This document shows, piece after piece, positions 21,083-39,038 of a stretch of 52,368 nucleotides of DNA. Origin of the DNA: Armatimonadota bacterium (GTDB lineage Bacteria > Armatimonadota > UBA5829); the NCBI GenBank assembly GCA_029907315.1, contig JARYME010000006.1:1-52368 (forward strand), read 5' to 3'. The position numbers and the translations under genes were made by a program. Numbering within the stretch: position 1 is the stretch's first letter; each line of letters opens with the position of its first letter. The notes beneath the pieces were generated by a model. That model was not told the DNA's origin, did no database searches, and saw only the letters and a list, made by a program, of their open reading frames with translations.

Positions 21083-22105
21083 ATGAAGTTCAAAGTAGCA
21101 GTTGTTGGGGCCGGCGCTGTCGGCGAGGAAATGGTTAAAGTTTTGCGCCAGCGCAACTTTCCAATTTCTGATCTAGTTGTGTTGGCTCGGTCTTCTCGAA
21201 AGCAGTTGATAAACGGCGAAGAGATGGATGTCAAAGAAACAACGCCGGAGGCTTTTGACGATGTCGACATAGCCTTCTTCGCTGGTACCGAGGGGGCCAA
21301 GGGGGCCAGCCAAGTTTACGGCTGGGAAGCTGTTTCTCGTGGTGTATTTGTCATTGATAACGGCGACGACTTTCGCATGGACGCCAGAGTGCCGCTTGTT
21401 GTGCCCGAAGTGAACCCGGATGCAATCGGACCGGAACACCGGTTTATCGCCAATCCGAATTGCAGCACAATCCAAATGGTGCACGCGCTGGCGCCGCTGC
21501 ATAGAATTGCGCGTCTCAAGAGAATCGTGGTCAGTACGTATCAGTCCGTTTCCGGCACAGGTAGTGCCGCGATAAAGGAACTCCAGCAGCAGGTCGAGGA
21601 TTACGTTGCTGGCCGAGAGCTTCGGTGGGAACAGTATCCTTATCAGATCTTCGCGAACCTAATACCGCAGATATCCAGCCTGAAAGATGAGTTTCCCGGC
21701 TATTACGGGGAAGAAATCAAGATGATCAAGGAGACCCGCAAGATTTTCGGTATCCCAGACTTGGCAGTTTCGGCGACGTGTGTCCGCGTGCCGGTGTTTC
21801 GTGGACATGCTGAGGCGGTCAACGCGGAATTTCATAACCCGATAACCGCAGACGTAGCGCGCAAGGCCTTGTCGGAGTTTCCAGGTATTGAGGTAATCGA
21901 CGATCCCGCTGCCAGTAAGTACCCGATGCCGATCTTCGCCGCGCATAAGGACCCGACTTTTGTAGGACGCATTCGCCAAGACCCTTGTCATCCGAATACA
22001 CTCGATATGTGGATTGTGGCGGACAACATCCGAAAGGGTGCTGCCTTGAATGCTGTCCAGATAGCGGAACTCGTTATTGATAGGGGATTTGTCCGGCCGA
22101 AATAA
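21083..22105 (+). CDS. asd: Aspartate-semialdehyde dehydrogenase
   Basis: VAVVGAGAVGEEMVKVL; FIANPNCSTIQMVHALAPLH; TYQSVSGTGSAAIKEL. Confidence 0.95.
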   Translation: MKFKVAVVGAGAVGEEMVKVLRQRNFPISDLVVLARSSRKQLINGEEMDVKETTPEAFDDVDIAFFAGTEGAKGASQVYGWEAVSRGVFVIDNGDDFRMDARVPLVVPEVNPDAIGPEHRFIANPNCSTIQMVHALAPLHRIARLKRIVVSTYQSVSGTGSAAIKELQQQVEDYVAGRELRWEQYPYQIFANLIPQISSLKDEFPGYYGEEIKMIKETRKIFGIPDLAVSATCVRVPVFRGHAEAVNAEFHNPITADVARKALSEFPGIEVIDDPAASKYPMPIFAAHKDPTFVGRIRQDPCHPNTLDMWIVADNIRKGAALNAVQIAELVIDRGFVRPK

Positions 22106-22154
22106 CATTGTGCTGCAAGCCGACTTTCCGAATGAGCCCGGCGGGCTTCGAAAA

Positions 22155-23834
22155 ATGCCTCGAAAGAGAAGAGCCGACAAGAAGCTCAAGGTGATCCCTC
22201 TGGGCGGTGTTCTTGAGATTGGCAAGAACATGACTGCCTACGTTTGCGACGACGGCATCCTGGTTGTCGATGCCGGCCTGATGTTCCCAGAGGAAGAAAT
22301 GCTCGGGGTCGATATTGTCATACCCGACATCACCTTCTTGCAGGAGAACCGAGACAAAGTCCTTGGCATAGTGCTTACTCACGGCCACGAAGACCACATT
22401 GGAGCACTGCCTTACGTCTTGAAATCGCTGGACGTGCCGGTGTTCGGCACTGCTCTGACGCTTGGGTTCGTCGCCAATAAGCTTGACGAACACGGACTTC
22501 TCGACTCTGCACGTCTGCACGAGATTCGAAAGGGAGGCAAACTCCATCTTGGAAGTTTTGTACTGGAGTTTGTCGGCGTTTCCCACTCCGTGCCTGACAC
22601 CGTGGGACTGATAATTCATACTCCCATCGGGCTTGTTGTCCATTCCAGCGATTTCAAATTTGATCAGACGCCTATCGATGGGCAGCTTACGGATGCGGGT
22701 CGTCTTGCTCGTGCGGGCGAAGAGGGCGTGCTTTTGGCGCTATGCGATGTGACCAACGTTGAAAAAACCGGGTTTGCGCGTAGCGAAAGCGAGGTCGGAG
22801 AAACCTTTGACAAGGTCTTCGAGGAGTCACCGGGGCGAGTAGTGATTGCCGCTTTCGCGTCCAATATACATCGCGTCCAGCAGGTGTACGACGTAGCGGC
22901 GCGTCACGGAAGACGTGTGGCGGTTGTGGGGCGCAGTATGCAGGAAAACTGCCGCATTGCTGAGGAGCTGGGCTATCTTAAGGTGCCCGAAGGCACTCGT
23001 CTGCGCCTGGATGAGCTGGATAGTGTCGAGCCGGGCCGCACGGTGATCATAACCACTGGCAGTCAGGGTGAGCCCCTGTCGGCTCTGTCGCGGATAGCGC
23101 TTGATGAGCACAAGAAGATCTCCATAGGTCCTGGTGACACGGTAATAATTAGCGCAACCCCGATCCCGGGCAATGAGGATCTTATTCTCCGCACTATCAA
23201 CCGCCTGTTCAGGCAGGGTGCGGAAGTGCTTTACGAGCCGTATTCAAAAGTGCATGCTTCCGGTCACGGCAACCAGGAAGACATCAAATTTATGCTCAAC
23301 CTGTTGAAACCGAAATATGTTGTTCCCGTTCACGGCGAGCAGCGGCACGTATCCAAGTTCAGGACTCTGGCTGAGTCCGTTGGGATTTCTAGGGACAGGG
23401 TATTCGAATTGAGCCCCGGGGATGTTTTGGAGATTTCGGAGGAGTCTGCTCAGGTAGTGGACAGGGTGCCCGCAGGAAGTGTAATGGTGGACGGTTTGGG
23501 TGTGGGGGACGTCGAAGATGTAGTGCTCCGGGACAGATGGCACCTTGCGCAGGATGGTGTCGTCATCATAGTGGTCGGGGTCGCTAAGGATTCGCGTGCG
23601 GTAGTGACTGGTCCAGACATATTTACACGGGGATTTGCGGGCGAGGACCAGGCTGGAGAGTTATTGGAGGAAGCGAAATCAGTCGTGCTGTCTAAGCTCG
23701 GTGAGTTCGACGAGATGAGGTCACTGGAGGAGTTCGACGAGATAAAGACGGCGTGCAGAAAGGCGGTAGCCAAACTTATCTATGAGCGAATCAGACGCCG
23801 GCCTGTTATCGTTCCCATTGTGCTGGAGGTCTAG
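22155..23834 (+). CDS. rnj: Ribonuclease J
   Basis: LTHGHEDHIGALPYVL; FAVSSHSVPD-like VGVSHSVPDTVGLII; HASGHGNQEDIKFML. The ORF opens at 22077; likely start is near 22155. Confidence 0.96.
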   Translation: MPRKRRADKKLKVIPLGGVLEIGKNMTAYVCDDGILVVDAGLMFPEEEMLGVDIVIPDITFLQENRDKVLGIVLTHGHEDHIGALPYVLKSLDVPVFGTALTLGFVANKLDEHGLLDSARLHEIRKGGKLHLGSFVLEFVGVSHSVPDTVGLIIHTPIGLVVHSSDFKFDQTPIDGQLTDAGRLARAGEEGVLLALCDVTNVEKTGFARSESEVGETFDKVFEESPGRVVIAAFASNIHRVQQVYDVAARHGRRVAVVGRSMQENCRIAEELGYLKVPEGTRLRLDELDSVEPGRTVIITTGSQGEPLSALSRIALDEHKKISIGPGDTVIISATPIPGNEDLILRTINRLFRQGAEVLYEPYSKVHASGHGNQEDIKFMLNLLKPKYVVPVHGEQRHVSKFRTLAESVGISRDRVFELSPGDVLEISEESAQVVDRVPAGSVMVDGLGVGDVEDVVLRDRWHLAQDGVVIIVVGVAKDSRAVVTGPDIFTRGFAGEDQAGELLEEAKSVVLSKLGEFDEMRSLEEFDEIKTACRKAVAKLIYERIRRRPVIVPIVLEV

Positions 23835-25130: not shown

Positions 25131-25159
25131 TTGACACCTTGCAGCCGACTGGTTATAAT
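25131..25159 (+). promoter_or_regulatory. Exact-consensus sigma70 promoter for the str operon
   Basis: TTGACA (25131-25136), 17-nt spacer, TATAAT (25154-25159). Confidence 0.8.
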
Positions 25160-25165
25160 ATACTC

Positions 25166-25309
25166 GTTCACGCGCCTCAGGGCGCGTGTGCCGAGAAACG
25201 ACACGTAAGGGGGCGATTGGCACACCTCATCTCGTAGCTTGGTGCACGAGAACATCGTCTGAAATCTGGTGGTCTAGCGCCCTTCGAGTGTGTCGCGAAG
25301 GGCTTTTTT
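25166..25309 (+). ncRNA. Candidate structured leader RNA of rpsL ending at an intrinsic terminator
   Basis: Approximate TSS inferred from the promoter. Contains CGCGCC-TCAG-GGCGCG, alternative stems CGTGT/ACACG versus GTGTGCC/GGCACAC, then the terminator. Confidence 0.55.
25279..25309 (+). terminator. Intrinsic terminator inside the rpsL 5' leader
   Basis: GCCCTTCG (25279-25286) / CGAAGGGC (25296-25303), then TTTTTT (25304-25309). Confidence 0.82.
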
Positions 25310-25343: not shown

Positions 25344-25715
25344 TTGCCTACCATTAGTCAGCTTGTACGTAAAGGACGCGAAAAGGTAAAAAAGAAGACT
25401 AAGGCGCCGGCATTGAAAGGTTGTCCGCAAAAGCGCGGTGTCTGCCTTGTTGTTCGAACGGAGACACCGAAGAAGCCTAATTCGGCCCTTAGGAAGGTTG
25501 CAAGAGTTAGGTTGACCAACGGAATGGAGGTTACCGCCTACATTCCTGGAATCGGTCACAACCTGCAGGAGCACTCCGTCGTTCTGGTGCGCGGGGGAAG
25601 AGTTAAAGACCTGCCCGGTGTGCGGTACCATATAATCCGGGGCGCGCTGGATGCAGCCGGAGTGTCCGACAGGAAGAAGGGTCGATCGAAGTACGGCGCC
25701 AAGAAGCCTAAGTGA
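25344..25715 (+). CDS. rpsL: 30S ribosomal protein S12 (TTG start)
   Basis: [54 protein letters not shown]. Confidence 0.98.
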
Positions 25716-25787
25716 GTTTGAGTTCGGAATGCTCGCTTGATTTCGGCGGTAAGCCGTTTGAGCGGGCGGGTGCCGAGAATTGTTTAG

Positions 25788-26279
<492 letters not shown>

Positions 26280-26300
26280 GATTCGACATTGTCTGTCATT

Positions 26301-26459
26301 CTTCAACTCTGACGGCGAGTAACCGGAGACGGTGTGACCGACTCTTCGGTGATTCGAGATGTTGAAGGGGGCATATACGCGAAGGCAAGAGTGTGATCGA
26401 ACTGAATAGAGGGGACAAAGCATATAAGGCTTGATGCCCTCCGATCACGCTTGCGTTCG
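26301..26459 (+). ncRNA. Candidate structured intergenic RNA between rpsG and fusA (two domains)
   Basis: Domain 1: CTTCAAC(26301-26307)/GTTGAAG(26361-26367) enclosing ACCG-GAGA-CGGT and ACCG-ACTCTT-CGGT. Domain 2: CGAA/TTCG, GCAAG/CTTGC, GTGATCG/CGATCAC, GAGGG/CCCTC and AAGC/GCTT nested between 26380 and 26459. Confidence 0.5.
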
Positions 26460-26476
26460 AGTTTTAGAAATCGGTT

Positions 26477-28585
26477 GTGGTAAACAAAATGTCACGCGAC
26501 TATCCGCTTGAAAAAACAAGAAATATAGGGATTGCCGCGCACATCGACGCCGGTAAAACGACAACGACGGAGCGTATTTTGTACTACTCCGGGCGTATCC
26601 ATCAGATGGGCGAAGTGGATGAAGGCGCGGCTACCATGGACTGGATGCAGCAGGAGCAGGAGCGTGGCATTACCATCACCTCAGCTGCAACCACCTGCTT
26701 TTGGCGCGACTGCCGCATCAACATAATCGATACCCCCGGTCACGTCGACTTCACTGTCGAAGTTGAGCGCAGTTTGAGAGTCCTTGATGGAGTTGTTGCC
26801 ATCTTCTGCGCGGTCGGCGGCGTTCAACCGCAGTCGGAGACTGTTTGGCGTCAGGCGAACCGCTACAAAGTGCCTCGAATAGCATTCGTCAACAAGATGG
26901 ATAGGGTGGGAGCCGACTTCCACAAGGTAGTGGATAGGATTAGAGACAGGCTCGGCGCCAACGCAGTTCCGATCCAACTTCCTATAGGTGCAGAAGAGAC
27001 GTTCGAGGGCGTGATAGATCTCGTCAGACTCAAGGCAATCCGGTGGATGGACGAGTTGGGACGGGAATATCGGGAGTTCGATATTCCCGAAGATCTGCGT
27101 GCGACCGCGTTGGAAATGCGGGAGCAGCTTATTGAGAAGGTTGCTGAGGTTGACGAGTACCTGATGGAAAAGTACATCGAGGGTCAAAAGATAACCCCAG
27201 AGGAGATAAAAGCAGGTATCCGCAAAGGAACCGTGACCAACGTTTTGGTTCCTGTCCTGTGCGGAGCGGCTTTCCGGAACAAAGGTATCCAACCTCTTAT
27301 GGATGCCATCGTGGATTATCTTCCCTCGCCGCTCGATGTTCCGCCGGTTGAGGGGGTGAACCCCAAGACTGGGGAGAAGGTAACACGGGAAGCCTCAGAC
27401 AAGGAACCGTTCACTGCTCTCGCCTTCAAAATAATGAGCGACCCGTACGTCGGAAAGCTGACCTTCTTCAGGGTCTACAGCGGACATCTCGCACGCGGTG
27501 GTGTTGTATACAACGCCAACAAAGAGAAGCGTGAGCGTGTGAACCGGATTCTGCGGATGCACGCCAACCACAGAGAAGAAGTCCAGCACGTCTTCGCCGG
27601 GGACATTGCCGCAGCAGTTGGTTTGGAACATACTACCACCGGCGATACCCTTTGTGCAGAGCATGCCAAGATTATACTCGAAGCAATGCACTTCCCAGAG
27701 CCGGTCATCTCGGTAGCAATCGAGCCGAAGACGAAGGCTGACCAAGACAAGCTGTGGACCGCGCTGGAGCGTCTGTCGAGTGAGGATCCGACATTCCGGA
27801 CTCGGGTGGACGAAGAAACCGGTCAGATTATCATCTCTGGGATGGGCGAGCTACACCTCGAGATAATCCTCGACCGGCTATATCGGGAGTTCAACGTTGA
27901 GGCCAACCATGGTAGGCCTCAGGTAGCCTACAAGGAGACTATAACGAAGCCGAGTAGAGGCGAGGGCAAGTACATAAAGCAGACCGGTGGGCGCGGCCAG
28001 TACGGACACTGCATACTAGAAATCGAACCTCTGCCGACGGGGTCCGGTGTAGAATTTGTCAACAAGGTAAAGGGCGGCGAGATCCCTTCTGAGTTTATCC
28101 CGGCGGTCAAGGCTGGTGTTGATGAAGCTCTCCAGTCAGGTGTGATAGCTGGATTTCCTGTGGTAGATGTTCGAGTCACGTTGCTGGGCGGCTCTTATCA
28201 CGAAGTAGATTCGTCGGAGAATGCCTTCAAAATGGCGGCGTCGATCGCCGTTCGGGAAGCCGTTGAGAACGGAAATCCTACCCTCAAAGAGCCGATTATG
28301 CGCGTTGAGGTGGTTGTGCCGGAGGAATTCGTCGGTGACGTCATATCGGACCTGAACGGCCGGCGCGGGAATATAACCCATATGGAAACAGGCCCAGGCC
28401 GCACTCATATCATAGACGCACTTGTTCCTTTGGCTGAGATGTTCGGGTACGCAACTGCTCTGCGATCTATGAGCCAGGGCAGGGCGTCGTACACGATGGA
28501 ACCGTCGCACTACGAATTGTTGCCGGACAATTTGGCTGAACAGCTGGTTTTGAAAATGACGGGAAGACCACTTGTGCGAAAATGA
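26477..28585 (+). CDS. fusA: Elongation factor G
   Basis: [67 protein letters not shown]. Start at 26477 or 26489. Confidence 0.98.
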
Positions 28586-29909: not shown

Positions 29910-29974
29910 GTTGAGACGGGCGTCGGCGATGGTTGCGACGCCGCTGGAGCGGTGATTTTTCAGGAGAGCTGGGT

Positions 29975-30283
29975 ATGCGCAAGGACAAGGTAAGGATCAG
30001 GCTTAGGGCGTTTGATCACAGGATATTGGACCAAAGCGCTGAGCGTATTGTGGAGACTGTTCGTCGCACGGGTGCTCGGATCTCAGGTCCGGTTCTGCTC
30101 CCGACAGAGAAGAACATCTACTGCGTGAATAGAGGACCGAACATCGATAAGGAATCGATGGAGCACTTTGAGATTAGAACACACAAGAGGCTCATCGATA
30201 TCCTCAATCCGGGTCCCAAGACCATTGATGCGCTGATGCGCTTGGATCTGCCCAGCGGCGTCGACATAGAAATCAAGCTGTAG
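29975..30283 (+). CDS. rpsJ: 30S ribosomal protein S10
   Basis: [43 protein letters not shown]. Start trimmed to ATG 29975. Confidence 0.97.
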
Positions 30284-30324
30284 CTAGATAGACAAGCGGA
30301 CATACCGCACCAGGGGAATGCCGA

Positions 30325-34801: not shown

Positions 34802-35009
34802 GTTTCGAAAAAAAATAAAAGAAGCTACGGATGCCGAGCTTGAGGCTATGCTCAAGCAGGAGCGTGAAGGGTTGTACAAACTGCGGCAGCAGATGGCTCT
34901 CAAGCAGCTCGACAATGTTCACGCCATCAAGACAGCCCGAAAGAATGTGGCTCGCATTCTTACCGAGATGCGGCTGCGTCGGGCTGCACAAGGACAGGGT
35001 AGGGGATAA
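34788..35009 (+). CDS. rpmC: 50S ribosomal protein L29 (GTG start)
   Basis: [46 protein letters not shown]. Confidence 0.93.
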
Positions 35010-35015
35010 CGGGCC

Positions 35016-36718: not shown

Positions 36719-38791
36719 ATGAAGAAATACCCGATAGATTCAATCAGAAACGTTGCTTTGGTAGGCCACGGTGGGACCGGAAAGACGTCGCTTGCAGAGG
36801 CGATGCTCTATACTTCCGGGGCGATCAGCCGATTAGGCCGAGTAGACGACGGGACAGCGACTGGGGATTTTGACCCCGAAGAGGTCCAGCGTAAGATCAG
36901 TATCAACTTGGCAGTTTTACCGTGCGAGTGGAAAGGTGCCAAGATAAACTTGGTTGACACGCCGGGGTATCCCGATTTTGTCGGAGACGTCATCGGTGCA
37001 ATGCGCGCCGTAGAGGCGGCTTTGCTTGTTGTCGATGGGACGGGTTCGATCGATGTCGGTACTGAAACTGCTTGGGACTTGGCAACTGAAGCCGGTATAA
37101 CGAAGCTATTCTTCGTCAACAAGCTCGAGAAGGAAAACACCGATTTCTATCGCACGCTCGAGTCGCTGCGCCAAAGGTTTGGTACCAGCGTAGCTCCATT
37201 GCAGCTGCCTATCGGATCCGAGGACAAGTTTGCAGGCGTGGTCGACCTACTGACTCACAAGGCGTACAAGTGGGAAAACGGGAAGATTACACCCATAGAT
37301 ATGCCCTCCGAAATGGAAGGGCAGATCTCGAAAATGCGCGAGTCACTCATAGAGTCCGTCGCAGAGATGGACGACGCGCTGATGGAGAAGTATTTCGACG
37401 AAGGTACGTTGTCTGATGAGGAGATCGCCAAAGGTTTGGAAATGGGTCTGCGCGCAGGAAAGGTTGTGCCTGTCCTGTGCGGATCAGCGATGAAAATGGT
37501 CGGCGTTGATACGCTGCTCGATTTTATCGTGTCGAGCGTGCCCTCACCGGCAAATGTGCCGCCGGTCAAGGGTGTGAATCCGTCGGGAGCTGAGGAGACT
37601 CGTGCGCCGGGTGATCCGTTTTGCGCACTGGTCTTCAAGACAATGGCCGATCCTTACGTCGGCAAGTTGACTTATTTCCGAGTCTTTTCCGGTTCTATTC
37701 GGTCCGACTCGCACGTGTACAATGCGAATAAGGAACGCGAAGAACGCGTCGGTCAGATCTACTTTGTGCAGGGCAAAAACCAAATCCCGACGCCGGAGAT
37801 CGGTGCCGGAGACATAGGTGCGGTTGCCAAGTTGCAAGAAACCGCTACAGGCGACACGCTGTGCGACAAAGCTCACCCTATCGTCCTGAAGCCAATCGAG
37901 TTTCCGGAGCCGGTATATTCTCTTGCGGTCAGGGCGAAGACAAAAGCCGACGAGGACAAACTTGGGCCTGCTTTGCAGAAGCTCGCTGAAGAAGACCCGA
38001 CGTTCCAGACCTATCGCGACCAAGATATAGGTCAGACCCTGATATGCGGTTTGGGTGAAACGCAGCTTGACATCATGGTCGAACGGCTCAAGCGGAAGTT
38101 CGGTGTGGAAGTTGAGACTGAGACTCCCAAAGTTCCATACCGCGAAACAATCACGACCACGGCCGAAGCGCAGGGTCGCCACAAAAAACAGACCGGTGGT
38201 CGTGGACAGTTCGGCGATTGTTGGATACGGCTTGAGCCTTTGCCCAGGGGCAGCGGCTATGAGTTCGTTGATCAAATAGTTGGCGGTGCTATTCCGCGTC
38301 AGTTTATTCCCTCAGTAGACAAGGGAATCAGGGACGCGATGAGCCAGGGAATATTGGCGGGTTATCCGGTTGTTGACGTCAGAGCCGTGTGTTATGACGG
38401 CAGCTACCATACGGTCGACTCTTCAGACTTGGCTTTCCAATTGGCAGGTCGACTTGCCTTCCGCGCTGCGGCTGAAAAAGCGAATCCGGTATTGCTGGAA
38501 CCGATCTACGAAATGGAGATCATCGTGCCGGAAGAATTCATGGGCGACGTGATTGGCGATCTGAATGCCAAGCGGGGTAGAGTGCTCGGAATGGAGCCGC
38601 TGGGAGGCGGTAGGCAGAAAATAAGAGCCCATGTTCCGCAGGCAGAAATCCAGCGGTACTCGATCGATTTGCGTTCTATTGCGCGTGGACGCGGCAAGTT
38701 TTCTGCTCGGTTCTCGCATTATGAAGAAGTACCGCCGAATGTGGCGCAGACAATAATCGCTCAAGCTGAGCGAGCTCGGAAAGAGGAGTAG
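36719..38791 (+). CDS. EF-G-like paralog (EF-G2/FusA2 type) embedded in the spc operon
   Basis: VALVGHGGTGKTSLAEAMLYTSGAISRLGRVDDGTATGDFDPEEVQRKISINLAVLPCEWKGAKINLVDTPGYPDF; five-domain EF-G length; 4-nt gap after rplE and 3-nt gap before rpsN. Confidence 0.95.
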   Translation: MKKYPIDSIRNVALVGHGGTGKTSLAEAMLYTSGAISRLGRVDDGTATGDFDPEEVQRKISINLAVLPCEWKGAKINLVDTPGYPDFVGDVIGAMRAVEAALLVVDGTGSIDVGTETAWDLATEAGITKLFFVNKLEKENTDFYRTLESLRQRFGTSVAPLQLPIGSEDKFAGVVDLLTHKAYKWENGKITPIDMPSEMEGQISKMRESLIESVAEMDDALMEKYFDEGTLSDEEIAKGLEMGLRAGKVVPVLCGSAMKMVGVDTLLDFIVSSVPSPANVPPVKGVNPSGAEETRAPGDPFCALVFKTMADPYVGKLTYFRVFSGSIRSDSHVYNANKEREERVGQIYFVQGKNQIPTPEIGAGDIGAVAKLQETATGDTLCDKAHPIVLKPIEFPEPVYSLAVRAKTKADEDKLGPALQKLAEEDPTFQTYRDQDIGQTLICGLGETQLDIMVERLKRKFGVEVETETPKVPYRETITTTAEAQGRHKKQTGGRGQFGDCWIRLEPLPRGSGYEFVDQIVGGAIPRQFIPSVDKGIRDAMSQGILAGYPVVDVRAVCYDGSYHTVDSSDLAFQLAGRLAFRAAAEKANPVLLEPIYEMEIIVPEEFMGDVIGDLNAKRGRVLGMEPLGGGRQKIRAHVPQAEIQRYSIDLRSIARGRGKFSARFSHYEEVPPNVAQTIIAQAERARKEE

Positions 38792-38794
38792 CCC

Positions 38795-38980
38795 GTGGCA
38801 AAGAAGTGCTTGATCGAAAAACAGAAAAAGCCGCCCAAGTTCAAAGTGCGCAGATACAACCGCTGCGGCGTGTGCGGTAGACCGAGAGGTTATATACGCC
38901 GATTCGGCTTGTGCCGTATTTGTTTCCGGGAAATGGCGCATCGAGGGCTGATTCCCGGTGTAAGAAAGGCGAGTTGGTAG
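38795..38980 (+). CDS. rpsN: 30S ribosomal protein S14, zinc type (GTG start)
   Basis: [61 protein letters not shown] (CxxC...CxxC). Confidence 0.98.
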
Positions 38981-39038
38981 AGACCACGATGGTCCGCACA
39001 CAAAGTGCGGGTGTATCCGGTTAATGTGGAGGATCCGA

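Follow-up and report, generated by a model that had tools for sequence, protein, structure and literature searches.

The window, a stretch of 52,368 nucleotides that makes up one whole contig of the Armatimonadota genome G000, carries a str operon in which a long intercistronic gap separates rpsG, encoding ribosomal protein S7, from fusA, encoding EF-G. Its genes and RNA features are:

25131-25159: promoter-like TTGACA-17-TATAAT upstream of rpsL, seen in the family
25207-25308, plus strand: rpsL leader, attenuator type
25344-25715: rpsL, str operon gene
25809-26279, plus strand: rpsG (S7), TIGR01029
26294-26373, plus strand: domain 1, an upstream hairpin, UGUC.UUCUUCAAC/GUUGAAGGGGGCA, enclosing a nested inner stem (z -3.39)
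26367-26469, plus strand: conserved core of the fusA leader element (domain 2), helices P1-P2-P3-P4, identified by model matches in 10 genomes, fold z and covariation
26489-28585, plus strand: fusA (EF-G), TIGR00484, 1109 bits
28707-29909: tuf, followed by rpsJ and rplC

An RNase J gene lies nearby at 22077-23834. The contig also encodes a second member of the EF-G family (EF-G-like, PRK12740 type), on the plus strand at 36719-38791, 8 kb past tuf. No 23S rRNA was found in this assembly. We place the fusA start at ATG 26489 and not at GTG 26477, because the N-terminus MSRDYPLEK... that begins there is common to G000 and its relatives; the rpsG-fusA gap, put at 197 nt in the first-pass annotation, is accordingly 209 nt long (26280-26488). 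Compared with 77 loci of mostly other phyla, whose median is 45 nt, this gap is indeed unusually long, as had been remarked; within the phylum, however, lengths of 100-240 nt are common, and the str operon itself has other long gaps. Further long gaps of the window are 29910-30324 (415 nt as delimited, which takes in the S10 gene called from 29933; z -2.6), 34802-35015 (214 nt; z -1.6) and 38792-39023 (232 nt; z -1.4). Similarly, fusA has no clear Shine-Dalgarno sequence (SD) in the window, as had been noted, but in most relatives an AAGG stands about 9 nt ahead of the ATG.

The inverted repeats described in the first-pass annotation are present where it placed them, and the gap folds with an energy of -73.3 kcal/mol (z -4.27) that none of 200 shuffled sequences equalled. 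When the 3' domain was folded alone (26366-26466), z was -5.34, and the long irregular stem proposed for it was recovered, with CGAA/TTCG, GTGATCG/CGATCAC, GAGGG/CCCTC preceded by the 9-nt bulge AACTGAATA, and AAGC/GCTT. The description of domain 1 was only partly borne out. Its outer helix is correct and even longer than proposed, but the junction of ACCG-GAGA-CGGT and ACCG-ACTCTT-CGGT is not the stable fold, since the two-hairpin form reaches -16.8 kcal/mol versus -34.2 kcal/mol for a single long nested hairpin, a cost of 17 kcal/mol. Sequence comparison among relatives located domain 1 in two genomes only, G000 and G002.

The conserved 3' element is a single stem with the following parts, all on the plus strand:

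26367-26372: invariant GGGGGC, in the context AAGGGGGC, identical in 10/10 genomes
26379-26387: P1 5' strand GCGAAGGCA, pairing with 26452-26460 (alignment columns 13-21 with 70-78, 88.9% of cells paired)
26395-26399: P2 5' strand GATCG, pairing with CGATC 26442-26446
26400-26408: one-sided 5' bulge, variable, 4-10 nt in relatives
26409-26413: P3 5' strand GAGGG, pairing with CCCTC 26437-26441 (columns 34-38 with 55-59; family form NNGGG/CCCNN)
26414-26417: internal loop 5' side GACA (consensus RACN), facing GATG 26433-26436 (consensus GNNG)
26418-26432: P4 tip hairpin AAGC-ATATAAG-GCTT, of variable length, with covarying pairs
26452-26460: P1 3' strand TGCGTTCGA

A short asymmetric junction separates P1 from P2. 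The invariant positions of the internal loop in alignment A4 are the A and C of RACN and G51 and G54 of GNNG. In the helices on either side of this loop, the two outer pairs of P3 change compensatorily, and both-sided changes occur in three of the four pairs of P4 (helix 3). The distance from the base of the stem to the fusA ATG is 19-29 nt in 10/10 genomes, though the gaps themselves span 161 to over 400 nt, and the base of the element sits just outside the region where a 30S subunit would bind. The fusA start site is predicted to be of intermediate accessibility, without clear occlusion.

A first MAFFT alignment put the tip of some sequences out of place. Alignment A4 comprises ten distinct sequences, loop-trimmed and with segments chosen by hand, so that its pair counts lean partly to the structure; in it 85% of cells pair and nine pairs change on both sides. 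Both-sided changes amount to 26 cells versus 10.3 in shuffles, and the covariation score of 0.255 (versus 0.147) was matched by none of 500 shuffles and exceeded that of every slid control, in which about half as many cells pair. Restricted to the inner helices, the same analysis gives 91.7% paired cells and a score of 0.330 versus 0.191. The automatic alignment A2 also has compensatory changes, in 11 of 31 pairs. Most of the changes fall in P4, at the tip, and in the outer pairs of P3, and the relatives thus supply for domain 2 the compensatory substitutions on which the annotation had let its proposal depend. Core identity between genera is 66%, compared with 33% for the four-fold sites in fusA next to it, a value near saturation; G013, whose fusA alignment is out of register (amino acid identity 0.23), was excluded from the detailed four-fold reading. 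The 3' domain is a real RNA-level structure under purifying selection. A small ORF or coding region was considered and rejected, because the lengths of the loops and the bulge are not divisible by three. For G002 a different fold is favored in the computed ensemble, with core pair probabilities of about 0.02 and a z for the gap of about 0.

The 3' domain was found in ten genomes from four genera of the same family of uncultured bacteria, each with a single copy that invariably lies in the rpsG-fusA gap. The carriers are G000, G001 and G002 (genus g1), G003 (g2), G004, G008, G011 and G013 (g3), and G005 and G009 (g4). A search of 291 genomes of the phylum with covariance model R1 matched exactly these ten (E 1e-27 to 3e-16), and a second covariance model returned the same set. 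Since both models were built from the carriers, whose top scores follow by construction, the informative part of these searches is that there are no other copies. The other 281 genomes of the phylum gave no credible match, the next best hit (E 0.08) lying in unrelated sequence; G007 and G015 gave weak matches at the right place (10.5 and 8.4 bits; E 0.9 and 3.2). Weak extra matches that might have been second copies either fall within or across coding sequence or amount to simple hairpins next to genes, and we take them as chance. Among loci of other phyla no homologue was found, the sole match, L002, being G013 itself. The element was not recognisable in the rpsG-fusA gap of family f3, and it is absent from genus g5 (G006, G010, G012), whose gaps are short. 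As these three rumen-type relatives manage without it, expression of fusA in the family does not require the element.

A second structured leader lies upstream of rpsL. It ends in an intrinsic terminator, GCCCTTCG...CGAAGGGC-TTTTTT, and its upstream strand AAGGGGGCGATTGG could pair with CTAGCGCCC to form a possible antiterminator; the terminator loop GUGUGU could likewise pair with an upstream CACAC. This leader covaries. Matches to model R3 lie ahead of rpsL throughout the class, strong in families f1-f3 and weak in f4-f5, and never at fusA. Homology between the two RNAs was rejected, each model finding its own site only in the loci; the sequence AAGGGGGCG is common to both in genus g1 and is suggestive only. 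The rpsL leader is a separate RNA, and its presence suggests two points of control in the str operon. In genus g5 the rpsL leader is also altered and lacks the AGGRGGCG motif, and the two elements may have been lost jointly.

Neither RNA matches a catalogued family. The rpsL leader has no match in Rfam, and a scan of Rfam 15 gave no match in the fusA element, at the gathering threshold or at E up to 5, nor in four relatives. Related elements have been described elsewhere. In streptococci, a structured RNA candidate occupies the same intercistronic place before fusA, as a variant of the 'rpsL-leader' (Naville and Gautheret 2010, PMC2965389). It was predicted as an attenuator with a terminator, whereas the element described here has no plus-strand terminator; the comparison draws on the published description and, for sequence, on the Rfam scan. 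The rpsL motif of 'Cand. Pelagibacter ubique', also a clade-restricted structured RNA of the str operon, occurs occasionally before rpsG or fusA, its partner being unknown (Meyer et al. 2009, PMC2704228). That motif has a bulged P1 leading into a three-stem junction, whereas ours is one unbranched irregular stem. Because both elements reported at this site differ from it in architecture, the fusA element is a new RNA within a known kind, the leaders of ribosomal protein and translation factor operons. It has a covarying conserved structure and, in 10/10 genomes, a fixed place before fusA.

How might such an element act? The fus gene of E. coli is coupled to rpsG at translation and repressed by S7 bound in the rpsL-rpsG gap (PMC10931766). 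Here, a structured gap of 160-210 nt makes simple rpsG-fusA coupling unlikely, and the fixed distance to the start codon together with the conserved loop points to a bound factor that would control how fusA is translated. We therefore favor, with a probability of roughly 0.6, the reading from sequence and predicted structure that the 3' half of the gap is a cis-acting RNA which sets fusA translation separately from rpsG. The stem would keep fusA from simple translational coupling to rpsG. A bound factor, probably a protein at the conserved internal loop, would stabilize or open the stem, and by analogy with ribosomal protein feedback the most likely binder would be a protein of the translation machinery. 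The resulting change in the stem would alter access of the 30S subunit to the weak fusA ribosome-binding site. The intermediate accessibility predicted for the fusA start, the different fold computed for G002 and the absence of the element from genus g5 weigh against this reading. No intrinsic terminator was detected on the plus strand of the gap, two terminator-like sites both being on the minus strand, and a transcription attenuator at fusA was rejected for want of a coding-strand terminator before the gene.

The annotation had proposed an element that controls translation or processing, for EF-G or for the str operon. For EF-G this fits an RNA that is conserved, covarying, present only before fusA and at a fixed distance from it, from which we infer control at translation. 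Control of the whole operon from the rpsG-fusA site is less likely, as a promoter-like sequence of the operon's own and a distinct conserved leader of attenuator type lie upstream of rpsL. Feedback regulation by S7 or EF-G would be the natural hypothesis for the fusA element. A further-reaching version, in which EF-G (or S7) would act through a dedicated sensor to regulate fusA alone, independently of the other str operon genes and beside the separate rpsL attenuator, as a two-element control in Armatimonadota, is one we advance only tentatively.

The leading alternative names the binder: S7 (or S12) would bind the element and repress fusA, as E. coli S7 does from the rpsL-rpsG gap. The E. coli protein represses the str operon, with fus included through coupling (PMC10931766), from a site that is, like ours, an intercistronic RNA of the str operon, and one that affects fus expression. 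The element directly follows rpsG, and the family's rpsL-rpsG gap has hairpins without visible sequence conservation and so may not hold such a site. However, the E. coli site lies one gap upstream and mimics the S7 site of 16S rRNA, whereas the 8-mers that the element shares with the 16S-bearing G002 locus are about as many as expected by chance, in what was a word comparison only; moreover, the class-wide conserved leader before rpsL would be a more natural place for feedback. We regard an S7 site as possible, though rather unlikely.

A long irregular double-stranded stem within an intercistronic gap, with RNase J encoded nearby, could also be a stabilizer or a processing site for RNase III or another nuclease, which would split the rpsL-rpsG from the fusA-tuf transcript and set their relative amounts. 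RNase III sites, however, need little sequence conservation, and in this element the internal loop and the 5' GGGGGC are invariant, which makes processing an unlikely account.

The GGGGGC motif itself invites another explanation. Its context, AAGGGGGC, complements the anti-SD CCUCC with one G-U pair, an anti-SD that we found in the 16S rRNA of G002. According to computed pairings, its partner differs between lineages: mainly CCUC at the 3' end of the stem in genera g2-g4, a downstream segment in another register in G001, and domain 1 upstream (0.92) in G000, where the 3' partner is lost. That GGGGGC is kept although its partner has changed hints that the motif itself is read by something. The reader could be the 30S subunit, loaded or held by AAGGGGG near a fusA start that has no clear SD in the window; structured standby sites can support such distant loading (PMC3936740). 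The motif is, however, predicted to be paired in all ten genomes but G002, so that it is not obviously available, and for standby binding the conserved loop in the rest of the stem would be superfluous. We consider such a standby or decoy site doubtful. Finally, DNA-level or chance conservation (an internal promoter, a repeat or slow drift), which could appeal to nothing beyond the short divergence within genera, is very improbable given the compensatory changes, the single copy per genome, the saturated neighbouring silent sites and the lack of a sigma-70-like promoter in 25700-26700.

Outside E. coli, there has been very little work on feedback control of the str operon by S7 (review, PMC10931766). 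The clade-specific fusA leader, known from ten sequences of one phylum, and the rpsL leader together offer a testable case of how synthesis of S12, S7, EF-G and EF-Tu is controlled in a distant phylum, and both could join Rfam as RNA families.

Other structures occur in this gap among relatives. In G003 (locus L090) the gap extends to 417 nt and contains, upstream of the element, a hairpin-rich sequence of roughly 140 nt in two near-identical copies. Two genomes of the same order, G015 (L101) and G018 (L105), have very stable structures of a different kind at this place (z -6.4 and -9.7), that of G015 including the long stem GTCGAAGGTAAAA/TTTTACTTTCGAC.
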